Origin: Candidatus Cloacimonadota bacterium
GTDB lineage: Bacteria > Cloacimonadota > Cloacimonadia > Cloacimonadales > Cloacimonadaceae
DNA length: 38,511 nucleotides
Reading direction: 5' to 3'
Assembly (NCBI GenBank): GCA_028706475.1
Contig: JAQWBI010000017.1
Location: 1 to 38,511, forward strand
Positions 28,582 to 33,795 of the stretch are shown here, in pieces. The stretch's first letter is position 1; each line of letters begins with the position of its first letter. A program made the translations under genes and the position numbers. The notes below the pieces were generated by a model. That model was not told the DNA's origin and ran no database searches. It saw nothing but the letters and a program-made list of their open reading frames with translations.

Positions 28582-29280
28582 ATGTACACATTCGAAGAAA
28601 TCAAAGACATGCTCATTTATATTGCCGATGATGACGAGATCAATCTGAAACTGATCAAGACAGTTCTGAATCAGGCTGGCTTCTCAAACATGAAACTCTT
28701 CTTCAGTGGCAAGACCATGATGGAAGAGATTACCCATAACCGTCCTGATTTGCTGCTTTTGGACATCATGATGCCCGGCTTCAGCGGTTACGATGTGTTG
28801 GAATGCGTCAAACAAGATCCTCAGGTTGCGGATATCCCCATCATTATGATTACCGCTGCCTCCCTGGATGACAATATGGAGCCCCTTGCCCGCAGTTTCG
28901 AGCTAGGCGCAATGGATTATATCAGCAAACCGTTTTCTAATCTGGAGCTAATCCAAAGAGTGAAATCCGCTCTACGCATGGAAAAACAACGTCAAGCGCT
29001 GGAAAATGCAGCTACTCAGATCCGAAGCCTGCAAAAGCTCTTGCCCATCTGCTCCTATTGCAAAAAGATCAGAGCCGATAAGAACTATTGGCAGGAAGTG
29101 GAAGGTTACATCAGCGATCATACAGACACCATGTTCTCTCACTCCATCTGTCCGGATTGCTACGAAACCCATGTAAAACCCCAACTGGACCGCCTAAGAA
29201 ACGAAAAGAAAAACAAAGAGAATAAAGAAACTACCGAACCCAAAGCGGATATCGACAATGCGGAGAGCAAGGACTCCTAA
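28582..29280 (+). CDS. Orphan response regulator with receiver domain and four-cysteine C-terminus
   Basis: 232 aa. The receiver domain (11-130) has the acidic pocket DDDE at 16-19, phosphorylatable Asp61 (LLLDIMMPG), the Thr of MITAAS and the Lys of SKPF. After a short helix comes a segment with Cys157, Cys160, Cys190 and Cys193 (CSYCKK... CPDCYE), a likely zinc or metal site, then a highly charged tail. No DNA-binding or enzymatic output domain is seen. The CSYCKKIR-YW pattern recurs after receiver or PAS domains in many bacteria with no agreed function. It is the last gene of the long cluster. The histidine kinase 3.6 kb away is a candidate partner. Confidence 0.85.
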   Translation: MYTFEEIKDMLIYIADDDEINLKLIKTVLNQAGFSNMKLFFSGKTMMEEITHNRPDLLLLDIMMPGFSGYDVLECVKQDPQVADIPIIMITAASLDDNMEPLARSFELGAMDYISKPFSNLELIQRVKSALRMEKQRQALENAATQIRSLQKLLPICSYCKKIRADKNYWQEVEGYISDHTDTMFSHSICPDCYETHVKPQLDRLRNEKKNKENKETTEPKADIDNAESKDS

Positions 29281-30931: not shown

Positions 30932-30960
30932 ATGATACATAGCAGGTTAGGTCGTGTCAA
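30932..30960 (-). promoter_or_regulatory. Promoter of the GNAT-racemase operon
   Basis: On minus, TTGACA at 30960-30955 and TATCAT at 30937-30932 are 17 bp apart, six and five matches to consensus. Transcription would start near 30925, giving about 50 nt of leader. Confidence 0.75.
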
Positions 30961-31140
30961 GGCTTTTTTCCCCAGCTTTCACAATTTTAGCTCGAAAAGG
31001 TACTGATGCCATAGACAGCTAGGATATCCAGCTATGTGTGATTTTGTGAAGGATGGTTTGGACTTTGGGTAATGCATCCGTGATAAATGGTATAGCACGT
31101 GTGATGCATTCCCCCCCAAAAAAAAAGCAGAATATCACAT
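30961..31140. other. Intergenic stretch with small inverted repeats and a C7A9 run
   Basis: It contains an inverted repeat AATGCATC (31071-31078) / GATGCATT (31103-31110), a GGATATCC palindrome at 31021-31028, and a C7-A9 run at 31111-31126. GGTATAGCAC at 31089-31098 recurs at 31226-31235. No gene is supported. Confidence 0.4.
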
Positions 31141-31225
31141 CACATAATCACTCTATATGCTTCAAAGATCTATAGGAAATTTATCTCCTCATATACTATA
31201 TAGAGGACAGCACTGGGACAAATCC
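31141..31225 (-). repeat. 90-bp dispersed repeat, copy B
   Basis: Counterpart of 8321-8410. On minus it reads TTTGTCCCAGTGCTGTCC to TAGAGTGATTATGTG. The internal stem is AGGA (31189-31186) with TCCT (31177-31174), where copy A has AGGG and CCCT: a compensated change. It points toward the GNAT-racemase operon, about 180 bp before that operon's promoter. The minus frame 31170-31394 crossing it lacks a ribosome site and is not called. Confidence 0.65.
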
Positions 31226-31291
31226 GGTATAGCACCTCTGCATGGGTGTTATCCAGCCTTCCTGCAAGATTCTGGATGAGGTTTTTTGGGC

Positions 31292-31314
31292 AAAAAAAAA
31301 GCTCCTGAGGAGCT
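31292..31314 (-). terminator. Minus-strand intrinsic terminator
   Basis: AGCTCCTCAGGAGCT (6-bp stem, 3-nt loop) is followed on minus by eight or nine T (A on plus 31292-31300). A second small hairpin, ATTCTT-CT-AAGAAT on plus, lies just before it at 31319-31332. Confidence 0.85.
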
Positions 31315-31486
31315 AAATATTCTTCTAAGAATTGAAGGTCACTTATTGCAGCGAGAAGTGCGAACATTCGTGAGAAATTATAGTTATTCATCATTCGTTC
31401 AATATTCGCAGGAATGCGAGCTTTAGTGAACCGATACCTGCCGCGATTCGCTTTCTCAATGCTCCAAGCTGTGATAAAGCAGTTGT
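31292..31486 (-). ncRNA. Candidate small RNA of about 195 nt
   Basis: A minus-strand promoter (31493-31521) and an intrinsic terminator (31292-31314) bracket about 195 nt with no gene that has a ribosome site. The only frame begins at 31394 and runs through the terminator, so it is unlikely to be translated. The RNA would be divergent from the B12 sensor operon. This is inference from signals alone; a decayed leader of a lost gene is the alternative. Confidence 0.4.
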
Positions 31487-31492
31487 AAAGCC

Positions 31493-31521
31493 ATTATAAA
31501 GCAGTGATCACTAGATGATAA
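31493..31521 (-). promoter_or_regulatory. Minus-strand promoter of the candidate small RNA
   Basis: On minus, TTATCA (31521-31516) and a perfect TATAAT (31498-31493) are 17 bp apart. No minus-strand gene with a ribosome site follows before the terminator at 31292. Confidence 0.5.
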
Positions 31522-31736
31522 CCCGATTATATCTGCTTCATATCAAGATAATCCCCAAACAATTAATACGGAAGCGCCGCTTAGAAGCTCTTGGTTTGCA
31601 GGAAAAACTACTTCTTTTTTCGGCGGACATCACACCAAGTGCAGCACTAAAGGACTAGGATTTACAAGCTTAGAACTCCTTTGGGAGCTTGTGCGAGCGA
31701 TATCAATGCCTCTGACCGGTTATCTCACGATTGTGC
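31522..31736. other. Divergent intergenic spacer
   Basis: The gap lies between the small-RNA promoter and the promoter of the cobalamin-binding gene. No gene or clear repeat is visible. An in-frame upward extension of the downstream gene to 31691 is contradicted by its promoter. Confidence 0.4.
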
Positions 31737-31765
31737 TTGACATTAGCGCATCAAAGCTATATAAT
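31737..31765 (+). promoter_or_regulatory. Consensus promoter of the B12 sensor-kinase operon
   Basis: TTGACA (31737-31742), 17 bp, TATAAT (31760-31765): twelve of twelve consensus bases at the optimal spacing. Transcription would start near 31772, leaving about 25 nt to the ATG at 31796, with GAGG at 31784-31787. Such a short leader excludes a cobalamin riboswitch. Confidence 0.9.
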
Positions 31766-31795
31766 ATACATATGAATATGATCGAGGGGGTCGCC

Positions 31796-32857
31796 ATGCA
31801 ACACCACAACTACATGGAAGCCGCGGAATATATCAAATCTCAGCGCGAGCACATCGCAGAGCGCATTATGCAGGAAGGTGGCATCTATCTGTATCAGGAT
31901 TACACGGGGTATCAGATCGATAAATGCCGGCAGGATACCCTCTACAACCTGCAGTATCTGGCCGAATCCCTAATGATCGAATCAACCGGTCTATGGGAAA
32001 ACTACATTATCTGGCTTCGCATCTTACTCTCATCCTTGGGACTGGGTATGCAGGGTCTCTCCGAGCACTTCAGAGTGATGGGCGATGTACTAATCCCTTT
32101 GTTGGATCATCCTGCAGCAGAATTTGTAAAACGTTTAACTGGTTCTGCTGCAAAGCTGGTTTTAGATGACGCTCCCGATCTCAGCTTCACGCAGGAAAGC
32201 ACAGGAGAATATGCCGAACGCTCCAGGCAATATCAAGAGCTTCTTCTCAGTGCTCAGAAGCGCAAAGCCCTGAAATACATCGACCAACTCATCGATGATG
32301 GCATCCCTTTCAGAAACATCTATTTGGACATCATTCAACCGGTTCAGCGCGAAATTGGCAACCTGTGGCATCGCAACAAAATCTCTGTGGCACAGGAACA
32401 TTATTGCACCGGGGTCTCTCAACTTGTGATCGCCCATATGTATCCCAGAATGTTCAACGCATCTCCCTCAAAGTATAAGGTGGTAAGCACATGCGTCCAC
32501 GGAGAACTTCATGAACTAGGGCTGCGCATGGTCACTGACATCATGGAATTGGACGGATGGGACACCTACTACCTGGGTGCAAACATGCCCAACGACTCCA
32601 TCCTAAGCATGCTAAAAGCTCAAAAGGCCGATCTCCTGGCAATATCGGTTACATTCCCTCTTAATTTGCACAAGGCAGAGGAGCTCGTTTCCCTGGTTCG
32701 CCAGGATAAGGATTTGCAACCGCTGAAAATCATGGTGGGCGGCTATGCCTTCATGCAAGATACAGCGCTGTGGCAAAAGATCAGAGCAGATAGCTTTGCA
32801 CCCAATGCGGACATCGCTTCCAAAGTGGCATCTTCCCTACTTGAGGGCATCAAATGA
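31796..32857 (+). CDS. CarH-like cobalamin-binding sensor without DNA-binding domain
   Basis: 353 aa, soluble. Residues 1-150 are helical and unrecognised. Residues 155-225 form the four-helix cobalamin cap (B12-binding-2). They contain W191 and E201-H202, exactly the W-x9-EH motif of CarH/LitR adenosylcobalamin photoreceptors. Residues 228-353 are the Rossmann B12-binding domain with E237-x-H239-x-x-G242, His239 being the predicted lower cobalt ligand; SVTFPLN and VGGYAF match the later motifs. The E of ExHxxG is also the CarH form. It carries no MerR domain, methyltransferase or kinase domain, so output must pass through a partner: its stop overlaps the kinase start by ATGA. It could sense light through AdoCbl photolysis, or cobalamin level. 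A corrinoid carrier protein is the main alternative. Confidence 0.85.
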   Translation: MQHHNYMEAAEYIKSQREHIAERIMQEGGIYLYQDYTGYQIDKCRQDTLYNLQYLAESLMIESTGLWENYIIWLRILLSSLGLGMQGLSEHFRVMGDVLIPLLDHPAAEFVKRLTGSAAKLVLDDAPDLSFTQESTGEYAERSRQYQELLLSAQKRKALKYIDQLIDDGIPFRNIYLDIIQPVQREIGNLWHRNKISVAQEHYCTGVSQLVIAHMYPRMFNASPSKYKVVSTCVHGELHELGLRMVTDIMELDGWDTYYLGANMPNDSILSMLKAQKADLLAISVTFPLNLHKAEELVSLVRQDKDLQPLKIMVGGYAFMQDTALWQKIRADSFAPNADIASKVASSLLEGIK

Positions 32858-33795
32858 ACGCTCCGAAACTATTCTTGGAATCCAGTAAACTGGAAGAAAT
32901 ACAGAGCATTCTGATCCAGGCTTTGGCAAAAGCCGGCTTGGAACTGGGAACAGATTATCTCATTCAACCAGTAGATAATGTGCAAGAATACAAAGCCATC
33001 GACGATGATAAGCGCTTCTATCTGGATGAGATGGCAAAGCTGAATAACGACCTTACGAACATGCAACGCCAATTGGCAAAAGCAAATGCCGAACTCAGCA
33101 GACTGGCAGAGCTGCGCAATCGCTTTGTGGGGATGGCTGCTCACGATCTGCGCAATCCTTTGGGCATCATTAAAAACTTCAGTGAATTCCTGAAGACTGA
33201 TCTGGTGGGCAGTATCAATGACGATCAAATGGATATAGTAAACACCATCTACAACACTGCCGTCTTCATGCAACGACTGGTAGATGGCATCCTGGATGTC
33301 AGCTCTATGCAGAGTGGAAAAGTGGAGTTAAGCAAAAGCCGGAATGAACTGAATTTGATTCTGAAGCAGAACGTAAAACTGAATCAGACCTTAGCCAAAC
33401 AAAACAACATAAGCATCTTGTATCAGGGCACAGATGAAGACCTTTTCCTGGACATCGATGTGGTGAAGATCCGTCAAGTGCTGAACAACCTGATCGGAAA
33501 CGCAGTGAAATACAGTCCTGCTAGCAGCACTATCCACTGTAGCCTGTCCCGGAAAGGCAATTTTGCCCATATCTGCGTGAAAGATCAAGGCATCGGCATC
33601 CCTATTGAGGAGCAGAAATCTATCTTTGAACCATTCAAACACTTGAATAGAGGTGGAAGCAAAGAAAAATCCGTCGGATTGGGTCTCTTCATTGTAAAAA
33701 ACATCGTGGAAGCCCATGGCGGTGAAATCTCTCTGAAAAGTGAACCCGGCAAAGGCTCTATCTTCTGCATCAGTTTGCCGATAGATGGTTCTTAG
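32854..33795 (+). CDS. Soluble histidine kinase coupled to the cobalamin sensor
   Basis: 313 aa, no membrane segment or signal. Residues 1-50 are a small region I do not recognise (LEEIQSILIQALAKAGLELG). A coiled coil spans about 55-90. The HisKA domain has phosphoacceptor His97 (AAHDLRNPLG). The ATPase domain has the N box NNLIGNAVKYSP, DQGIGIP and GLGLFIVKNIVEAHGG. No PAS, GAF or HAMP domain is present, so the input is probably the cobalamin protein encoded immediately upstream, with overlapping codons and shared promoter. No response regulator follows. The nearest in the window is the four-cysteine receiver protein at 28582-29280. Confidence 0.92.
   Translation: MNAPKLFLESSKLEEIQSILIQALAKAGLELGTDYLIQPVDNVQEYKAIDDDKRFYLDEMAKLNNDLTNMQRQLAKANAELSRLAELRNRFVGMAAHDLRNPLGIIKNFSEFLKTDLVGSINDDQMDIVNTIYNTAVFMQRLVDGILDVSSMQSGKVELSKSRNELNLILKQNVKLNQTLAKQNNISILYQGTDEDLFLDIDVVKIRQVLNNLIGNAVKYSPASSTIHCSLSRKGNFAHICVKDQGIGIPIEEQKSIFEPFKHLNRGGSKEKSVGLGLFIVKNIVEAHGGEISLKSEPGKGSIFCISLPIDGS

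Follow-up and report, generated by a model that had tools for sequence, protein, structure and literature searches.

Photoglobins, described by Schneider and colleagues in 2022, are reportedly fusions of a globin with a B12-binding domain that are tied to signal-transduction domains by gene fusion and neighborhood, and a pairing with kinases may already have been noted in that work. Bilin-binding globins of the BBAG type are relatives of phycobiliproteins, some of them associated with B12-binding proteins, and the BBAG-2 lineage, which includes the photoglobins, binds biliverdin (PMC10151467). The photocobilins SasPcob (PDB entries 8j2w and 8j2x) and AbDPcob (8j2y) are standalone proteins combining a CarH-like B12 module with a phycobiliprotein-like globin, and are proposed to act by protein–protein contact. 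In SasPcob, biliverdin is held by Asp270 and Trp296; moreover, photocobilins may carry the B12 domain at either end and reportedly act in trans on an enzyme domain that is separate from them (PMC10979010). The light signature consists of the motifs GxxW, EH, GxxH, and GxxxP, and the output domains listed in the same source include no histidine kinases (PMC11796333). CarH and LitR (5c8d, 3whp) possess the B12 fold and this light signature together with a MerR-type DNA-binding domain.

Contig JAQWBI010000017.1 of Candidatus Cloacimonadota assembly GCA_028706475.1, here analyzed from position 1 to 38,511 (the window), encodes a predicted 353-aa sensor of the photocobilin type whose B12 domain forms the C-terminus, a domain order that has already been described. 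Like the known photocobilins, it is a standalone protein combining the two modules, shows the W...EH and ExH motifs and has the biliverdin-holding Asp and Trp positions filled as in SasPcob. In contrast to 8j2w/8j2x and 8j2y, the globin comes first and the B12 domain last, the output is a separate histidine kinase, a cysteine (Cys44) is found at the phycobiliprotein attachment position, for which photocobilins have been reported without Cys, and no bilin pathway was found in the host genome. CarH and LitR are less similar than the photocobilins and differ by their MerR domain, which the sensor lacks; its output is a kinase. The pair belongs to a kind that is already known and widespread, occurring in many phyla. 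The main new points are the assignment of the N-terminal domain, a pair-specific helix in the kinase, the scarcity of heme oxygenase combined with an IsdG-like neighbor gene in relatives, and a host with no known bilin route. With these elements, "B12 sensor plus kinase" becomes a defined system of many phyla.

Gene Organization and Kinase

The window belongs to a genome of 2.06 Mb (96.8% complete) whose close relatives in public records are Candidatus Cloacimonadota MAGs. The sensor ORF begins with ATG at 31796, and its stop codon, ending at 32857, shares an ATGA overlap with the kinase ORF, confirming an earlier note on this DNA. The start coordinate of 31737 given there is due to a perfect match to TTGACA-17-TATAAT which may represent a sigma-70-like promoter of the two-gene unit (Table 1). 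An upstream GTG start, extending the sensor to 388 aa, was considered and rejected, as it lies upstream of this promoter-like site, which argues against it, and relatives begin at the equivalent of the ATG at 31796. A search of the window for a cobalamin riboswitch or any other Rfam RNA gave no hit. Between the putative sensor promoter and a divergent GNAT gene lies a stretch of about 800 bases (30941–31736) in which no gene is convincing.

Table 1. Positions in the window of the features assigned to the sensor–kinase unit.
Feature	Position	Strand	Basis
Putative sigma-70-like promoter of the two-gene unit, consensus TTGACA-17-TATAAT	31737..31765	+	12/12 matches; consensus match only
Photocobilin-type sensor, 353 aa, globin followed by B12-binding domain	31796..32857	+	AlphaFold2 (pLDDT 93.4, pTM 0.90); homologue alignment; Pfam
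N-terminal globin/phycobiliprotein-like domain, residues 1–126, with C44, D47, and W73	31796..32173	+	Profile; PF00502; structure
CarH/photocobilin-type cobalamin-binding domain (CBD), residues 140–353	32213..32854	+	Pfam; alignment; structure; tree
Soluble histidine kinase, 313 aa	32854..33795	+	HisKA 1.5e-13; HATPase_c 4.3e-28
Pair-specific transmitter helix YLDEMAKLNNDLTNMQRQLAKANAELSRLAE, about kinase residues 56–86	33019..33111	+	Five-seed profile, 57 bits (window kinase is one seed)

The kinase gives only HisKA and HATPase_c matches in Pfam, in line with its previous description as a soluble enzyme without sensor domain, and shows the motifs of this enzyme class with H97 in HDLRNP, an N box at residue 212, G1 at 244, an F box at 258, and G2 at 275.

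Cobalamin-Binding Domain

Pfam assigns B12-binding_2 to residues 144–214 and B12-binding to residues 228–330 of the sensor, corresponding to a helical cap with W191 and E201-H202 and a Rossmann part with E237-x-H239. The motifs W191-x9-E201-H202 and E237-x-H239-x-x-G242 pointed out in the earlier note are present as claimed, together with G188, and Thermus CarH aligns with the same signature residues of AdoCbl photosensors. Retention of W, E, and H among homologues, which had been set beforehand as a test, is without loss, as none of the 88 aligned homologues deviates at G188, W191, E201, H202, H239, E240, or G242 and position 237 is either E or D; these figures, like those on gene pairing below, are biased upward since loci were selected for closeness to the window and VA[QE]EH formed part of one search pattern. 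The E-H pair is absent from methionine synthases and corrinoid carriers in the same aligned columns. Due to this absence from methyl carriers and the invariance in 88 homologues, the W/E/H motif is not considered a chance occurrence.

Best sequence matches of the sensor in the PDB are the photocobilins 8j2w/8j2x (2.5e-28) and 8j2y (5.8e-25), while the CarH-type 8jbs and CarH itself rank behind them; with the family profile, 8j2w is matched at 4.7e-45. Superposition of the AlphaFold2 model on 8j2w gave Z 26.9 at an rmsd of 1.8 over 208 aa with 30% identity, compared to Z of about 20 for the CarH entries, the structural search with the whole sensor model covering only the CBD. In a maximum-likelihood tree, CarH, the photocobilins, and the sensor family are split from the methyl carriers at 97/96, so that no clustering with methyltransferase carriers occurred; the exact place of CarH and CtMerR is unsure because both are long branches. 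Consequently, the earlier assignment as a CarH-type cobalamin module holds insofar as the tree places the CBD with the photoreceptors, but its closest counterpart is the photocobilin 8j2w and not CarH.

Globin Domain

As had been stated, the N-terminus has no DNA-binding domain of the MerR type. The helical domain found there, previously regarded as unrecognized, is a phycobiliprotein/photoglobin-type globin by profile, PF00502, and structure. The Phycobilisome match of the single sequence in Pfam is weak (E 0.0055, residues 36–112), yet 47 of 60 members of the globin domain family match PF00502. In the PDB, a profile built from 60 relatives hits the photocobilin bilin domains, including 8j2w, at 5e-9, allophycocyanin at 4e-8, and smURFP at about 1e-6. 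When modeled and searched alone, the globin reached a pLDDT of 91.8 and Z values of 16–17 against allophycocyanins (about 123 residues, rmsd about 2.2), compared to a chance level for helical bundles of about 13 with this tool.

Residues D47 and W73 correspond to Asp270 and Trp296 of SasPcob (offset +6, chain index 55 being Trp61) and are kept in 86 and 88 of the 88 homologues, respectively. Three residues before D47, position 44 aligns with the Cys of CLRD in allophycocyanin; a cysteine is found here in 39/88 homologues, and Cys44 is conserved in 4/4 genus members and two further members of the family. The globin is under purifying selection, albeit weaker than that on the CBD, with pN/pS values in the four genus members of 0.38–0.66 versus 0.20–0.28 and synonymous sites near saturation.

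Gene Pairing Across Relatives

For assessing conservation of the pair, which the earlier note had proposed to count in homologues, the closest 80 of 447 loci found were inspected. Genes were called mechanically, and since antisense ORFs had been selected at some of the GC-rich loci, kinases were counted on stop-to-stop frames. About 67 of the 79 readable loci have a histidine kinase directly downstream, so that pairing is strongly conserved. Other partners are GGDEF proteins in four loci (L025, L027, L066, and L067) and, in five (L055, L074, L077, L078, and L080), a short PAS-like protein with the helix described below but neither a kinase nor another output domain; these output-less partners come from Rufibacter and Adhaeribacter (Bacteroidota).

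Within the Cloacimonadota, a photocobilin is encoded in only 15 of 125 genomes and in 4 of 12 from the genus of the window. The pair is found in the window genome and in G003, G005, G016, G017, G029, G110, G112, G142, and G162, and every locus of this phylum with a readable flank shows kinase pairing except one; in G041, a CxxC-module protein replaces the kinase. G052 and G053 encode B12-only proteins with kinases. In a split version (G052; L014, 33–2087), a B12-only protein is followed by a 133-aa protein, by inspection a candidate separate globin, and then by the kinase. Relatives were not found in the viral contigs searched. Photocobilin–kinase pairs also occur in two contigs binned as Lokiarchaeota (L038, L071), for which transfer or a binning error is possible.

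A Putative Transmitter Helix of the Partner Proteins

Just ahead of the output domain, the partners of photocobilins have a helix in common that follows the pattern LNNELxNxQRELxKxNxEL (Table 1), irrespective of whether the partner is a kinase, a GGDEF or CxxC protein, or has no output domain at all. The profile was seeded with the window kinase and the partners from L012, L066, L067, and L078, which are excluded from independent support. At a threshold of at least 10 bits, it matches 67/70 directly adjacent partners and, without the seeds, still 64/67, while the only two other kinases matched in the scan turned out to be partners displaced by one spurious ORF each. A six-frame recount gave the helix in 68 loci plus seven partners hidden in long frames, i.e. 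in about 75 of 79. The helix is missing from unpaired kinases in the loci scanned and from all 12 other HisKA kinases of the window genome, where among 13 called only the paired one carries it. We take this pattern as evidence for a direct coupling of sensor and kinase through the helix. The helix offers direct access to the question of how a B12 photoreceptor that stands alone can control a separate enzyme, which is of use for optogenetics.

Pigment Supply and the Neighboring ABM Gene

BBAG globins are associated with heme oxygenase. In contrast, canonical heme oxygenase (PF01126) is encoded in only 3 of 50 genomes carrying the sensor family and in none of 24 Cloacimonadota relatives. The window genome gave no match to PF01126, PF03992 (ABM), or PF00762 (ferrochelatase), and ferrochelatase was not found in nine relatives either. 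Anaerobic heme opening by HutW was considered as another route and rejected, as matches stayed below the cut-off (best 166 versus 400 bits) and are likely HemW. A PduO-type cobalamin adenosyltransferase is present in the window genome (E 1.8e-48). Given this enzyme and the lack of heme oxygenase, ABM, and ferrochelatase matches, AdoCbl is expected and likely to be the chromophore in this host.

In 28 of 76 loci, an ABM gene encoding 98–115 aa lies directly upstream of the sensor gene on the same strand. These loci are spread over several phyla and comprise L028, L033, L034, L035, L036, L041, L042, L045, L046, L048, L053, L055, L069, L073, L074, L077, L078, L080, L082, and others. The neighbor is found at 21 of 32 loci with Cys44 versus 7 of 44 without (Fisher p 1.2e-5, not corrected for phylogeny). 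Like enzymes of the IsdG/HmoB/MhuD type, the ABM proteins match PF03992 and the HmuQ/IsdI models, have HmoB, MhuD, and IsdI as their closest named proteins of solved structure, and keep Trp56, Trp65, and His75. Unlike IsdG, which has a catalytic Asn at this position, they show Ser6 in 29 of 29 sequences; for this reason, heme degradation by the ABM proteins is putative, and the gene beside the photocobilin is a possible source of bilin. Within the literature searched, a link between IsdG and photocobilins was not found, which does not prove absence. The fate of bacterial heme-derived bilins has been noted as unknown (PMC6018153), and the scarce heme oxygenase together with the IsdG-like gene raises a testable pigment question bearing on it.

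Proposed Mechanism and Alternative Explanations

As the helix is found in the partners and is absent from unpaired kinases, coupling in trans via this element is the best mechanism, and the pair probably constitutes a photocobilin photosensor acting on its co-translated kinase in this way. Domains, motifs, phylogeny, gene pairing, the pair-specific helix, and a cobalamin adenosyltransferase gene are observed, while it is a prediction that the sensor binds AdoCbl, responds to light, and contacts the kinase directly, as is the direction in which it switches. In the dark, the sensor, likely a head-to-tail dimer, would hold AdoCbl with His239 as lower ligand and the adenosyl group beneath Trp191 and Glu201-His202. 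Green light would break the Co–C bond and release the adenosyl group, whereupon the helix carrying E201-H202 would move and the arrangement of the dimer or of the domains would change. This movement could then be relayed in trans to the soluble kinase via the helix just before the phospho-acceptor domain, altering autophosphorylation and thereby a response regulator encoded elsewhere. The globin keeps the bilin-contact residues, with bilin occupancy in this host being putative. Of the earlier reading as a split photoreceptor or AdoCbl sensor controlling the kinase, the trans pairing with a CarH-type module stands (tree split 97/96, conserved pairing). Control by assembly or disassembly, in turn, is one option among others, because the CBD of a relative, CtMerR, changed its structure in an anaerobic crystal on illumination but did not monomerize (PMC11796333), a behavior that matters for an anaerobic host.

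Photoreceptors in presumed dark anaerobes are a real puzzle. The host presumably is an anaerobe of dark places, and no light-linked gene was seen among the neighbors examined; together with the small share of Cloacimonadota genomes that encode the protein and the lack of a bilin route, this speaks against the photosensor reading. A sensor reporting the state of its cofactor, i.e. AdoCbl, another cobalamin, or a redox form, for which light would be irrelevant, would fit such a habitat as well as the relatives in other anaerobes (Clostridium, Halanaerobium, Ilyobacter), the adenosyltransferase gene, and the genome without ferrochelatase, heme oxygenase, or ABM. Nevertheless, we regard it as rather unlikely, considering that the whole light signature is invariant, including the residues holding the adenosyl group, that the nearest characterized proteins are light-driven (PMC10979010), and that neither a cobalamin riboswitch in the window nor a corrinoid gene in the scanned neighborhood was found. 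A role as corrinoid carrier of a methyltransferase system, placed beside the kinase by accident, is highly improbable: the overall fold is the same (3ezx, Z 24.2; 1bmt, Z 23.8) and NCBIfam gives a weak MtbC match far under its cut-off, but the tree separates the sensor from the carriers, these lack E-H, no methyltransferase was recognized among the neighbors examined, and the kinase pairing is conserved.

The favored photocobilin reading overlaps with that of a dual-chromophore photocobilin, which differs in what fills the globin. Here, a bilin, perhaps bound covalently to Cys44 and either scavenged or synthesized by some unknown enzyme, would add red-light sensitivity, in line with the nearly invariant D47, the invariant W73, the cysteine at the allophycocyanin chromophore position in 39/88 homologues and all four genus members, and the adjacent ABM/IsdG-like gene associated with this cysteine. 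We consider this unlikely for the window's host, as its genome lacks ferrochelatase, heme oxygenase, ABM, and a full-score HutW, the rate of evolution is higher in the globin than in the CBD, and the Cys–ABM association is uncorrected for phylogeny. Similarly doubtful is the broader idea that the whole branch uses bilin not derived from heme oxygenase, supplied by a photocobilin-linked IsdG-like enzyme in aerobic relatives, often for the cysteine at the Cys44 position, and that in Cloacimonadota the pocket is retained for a tetrapyrrole of unknown or external origin, with the dual sensor driving its various partners via the interchangeable helix. If true, it would give IsdG-type bilins a signaling role.

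As for the output of the photocobilin–kinase pair, a response regulator encoded in the window at 28582–29280 (+) might be the target of the kinase, although its position is weak evidence because the region is syntenic in G003. This regulator ends with a C-terminal module ICxxCKKIR...SHxICPxC which is also listed at L147 (3981–4709) and downstream at L100, and which in G041 takes the place of the kinase.
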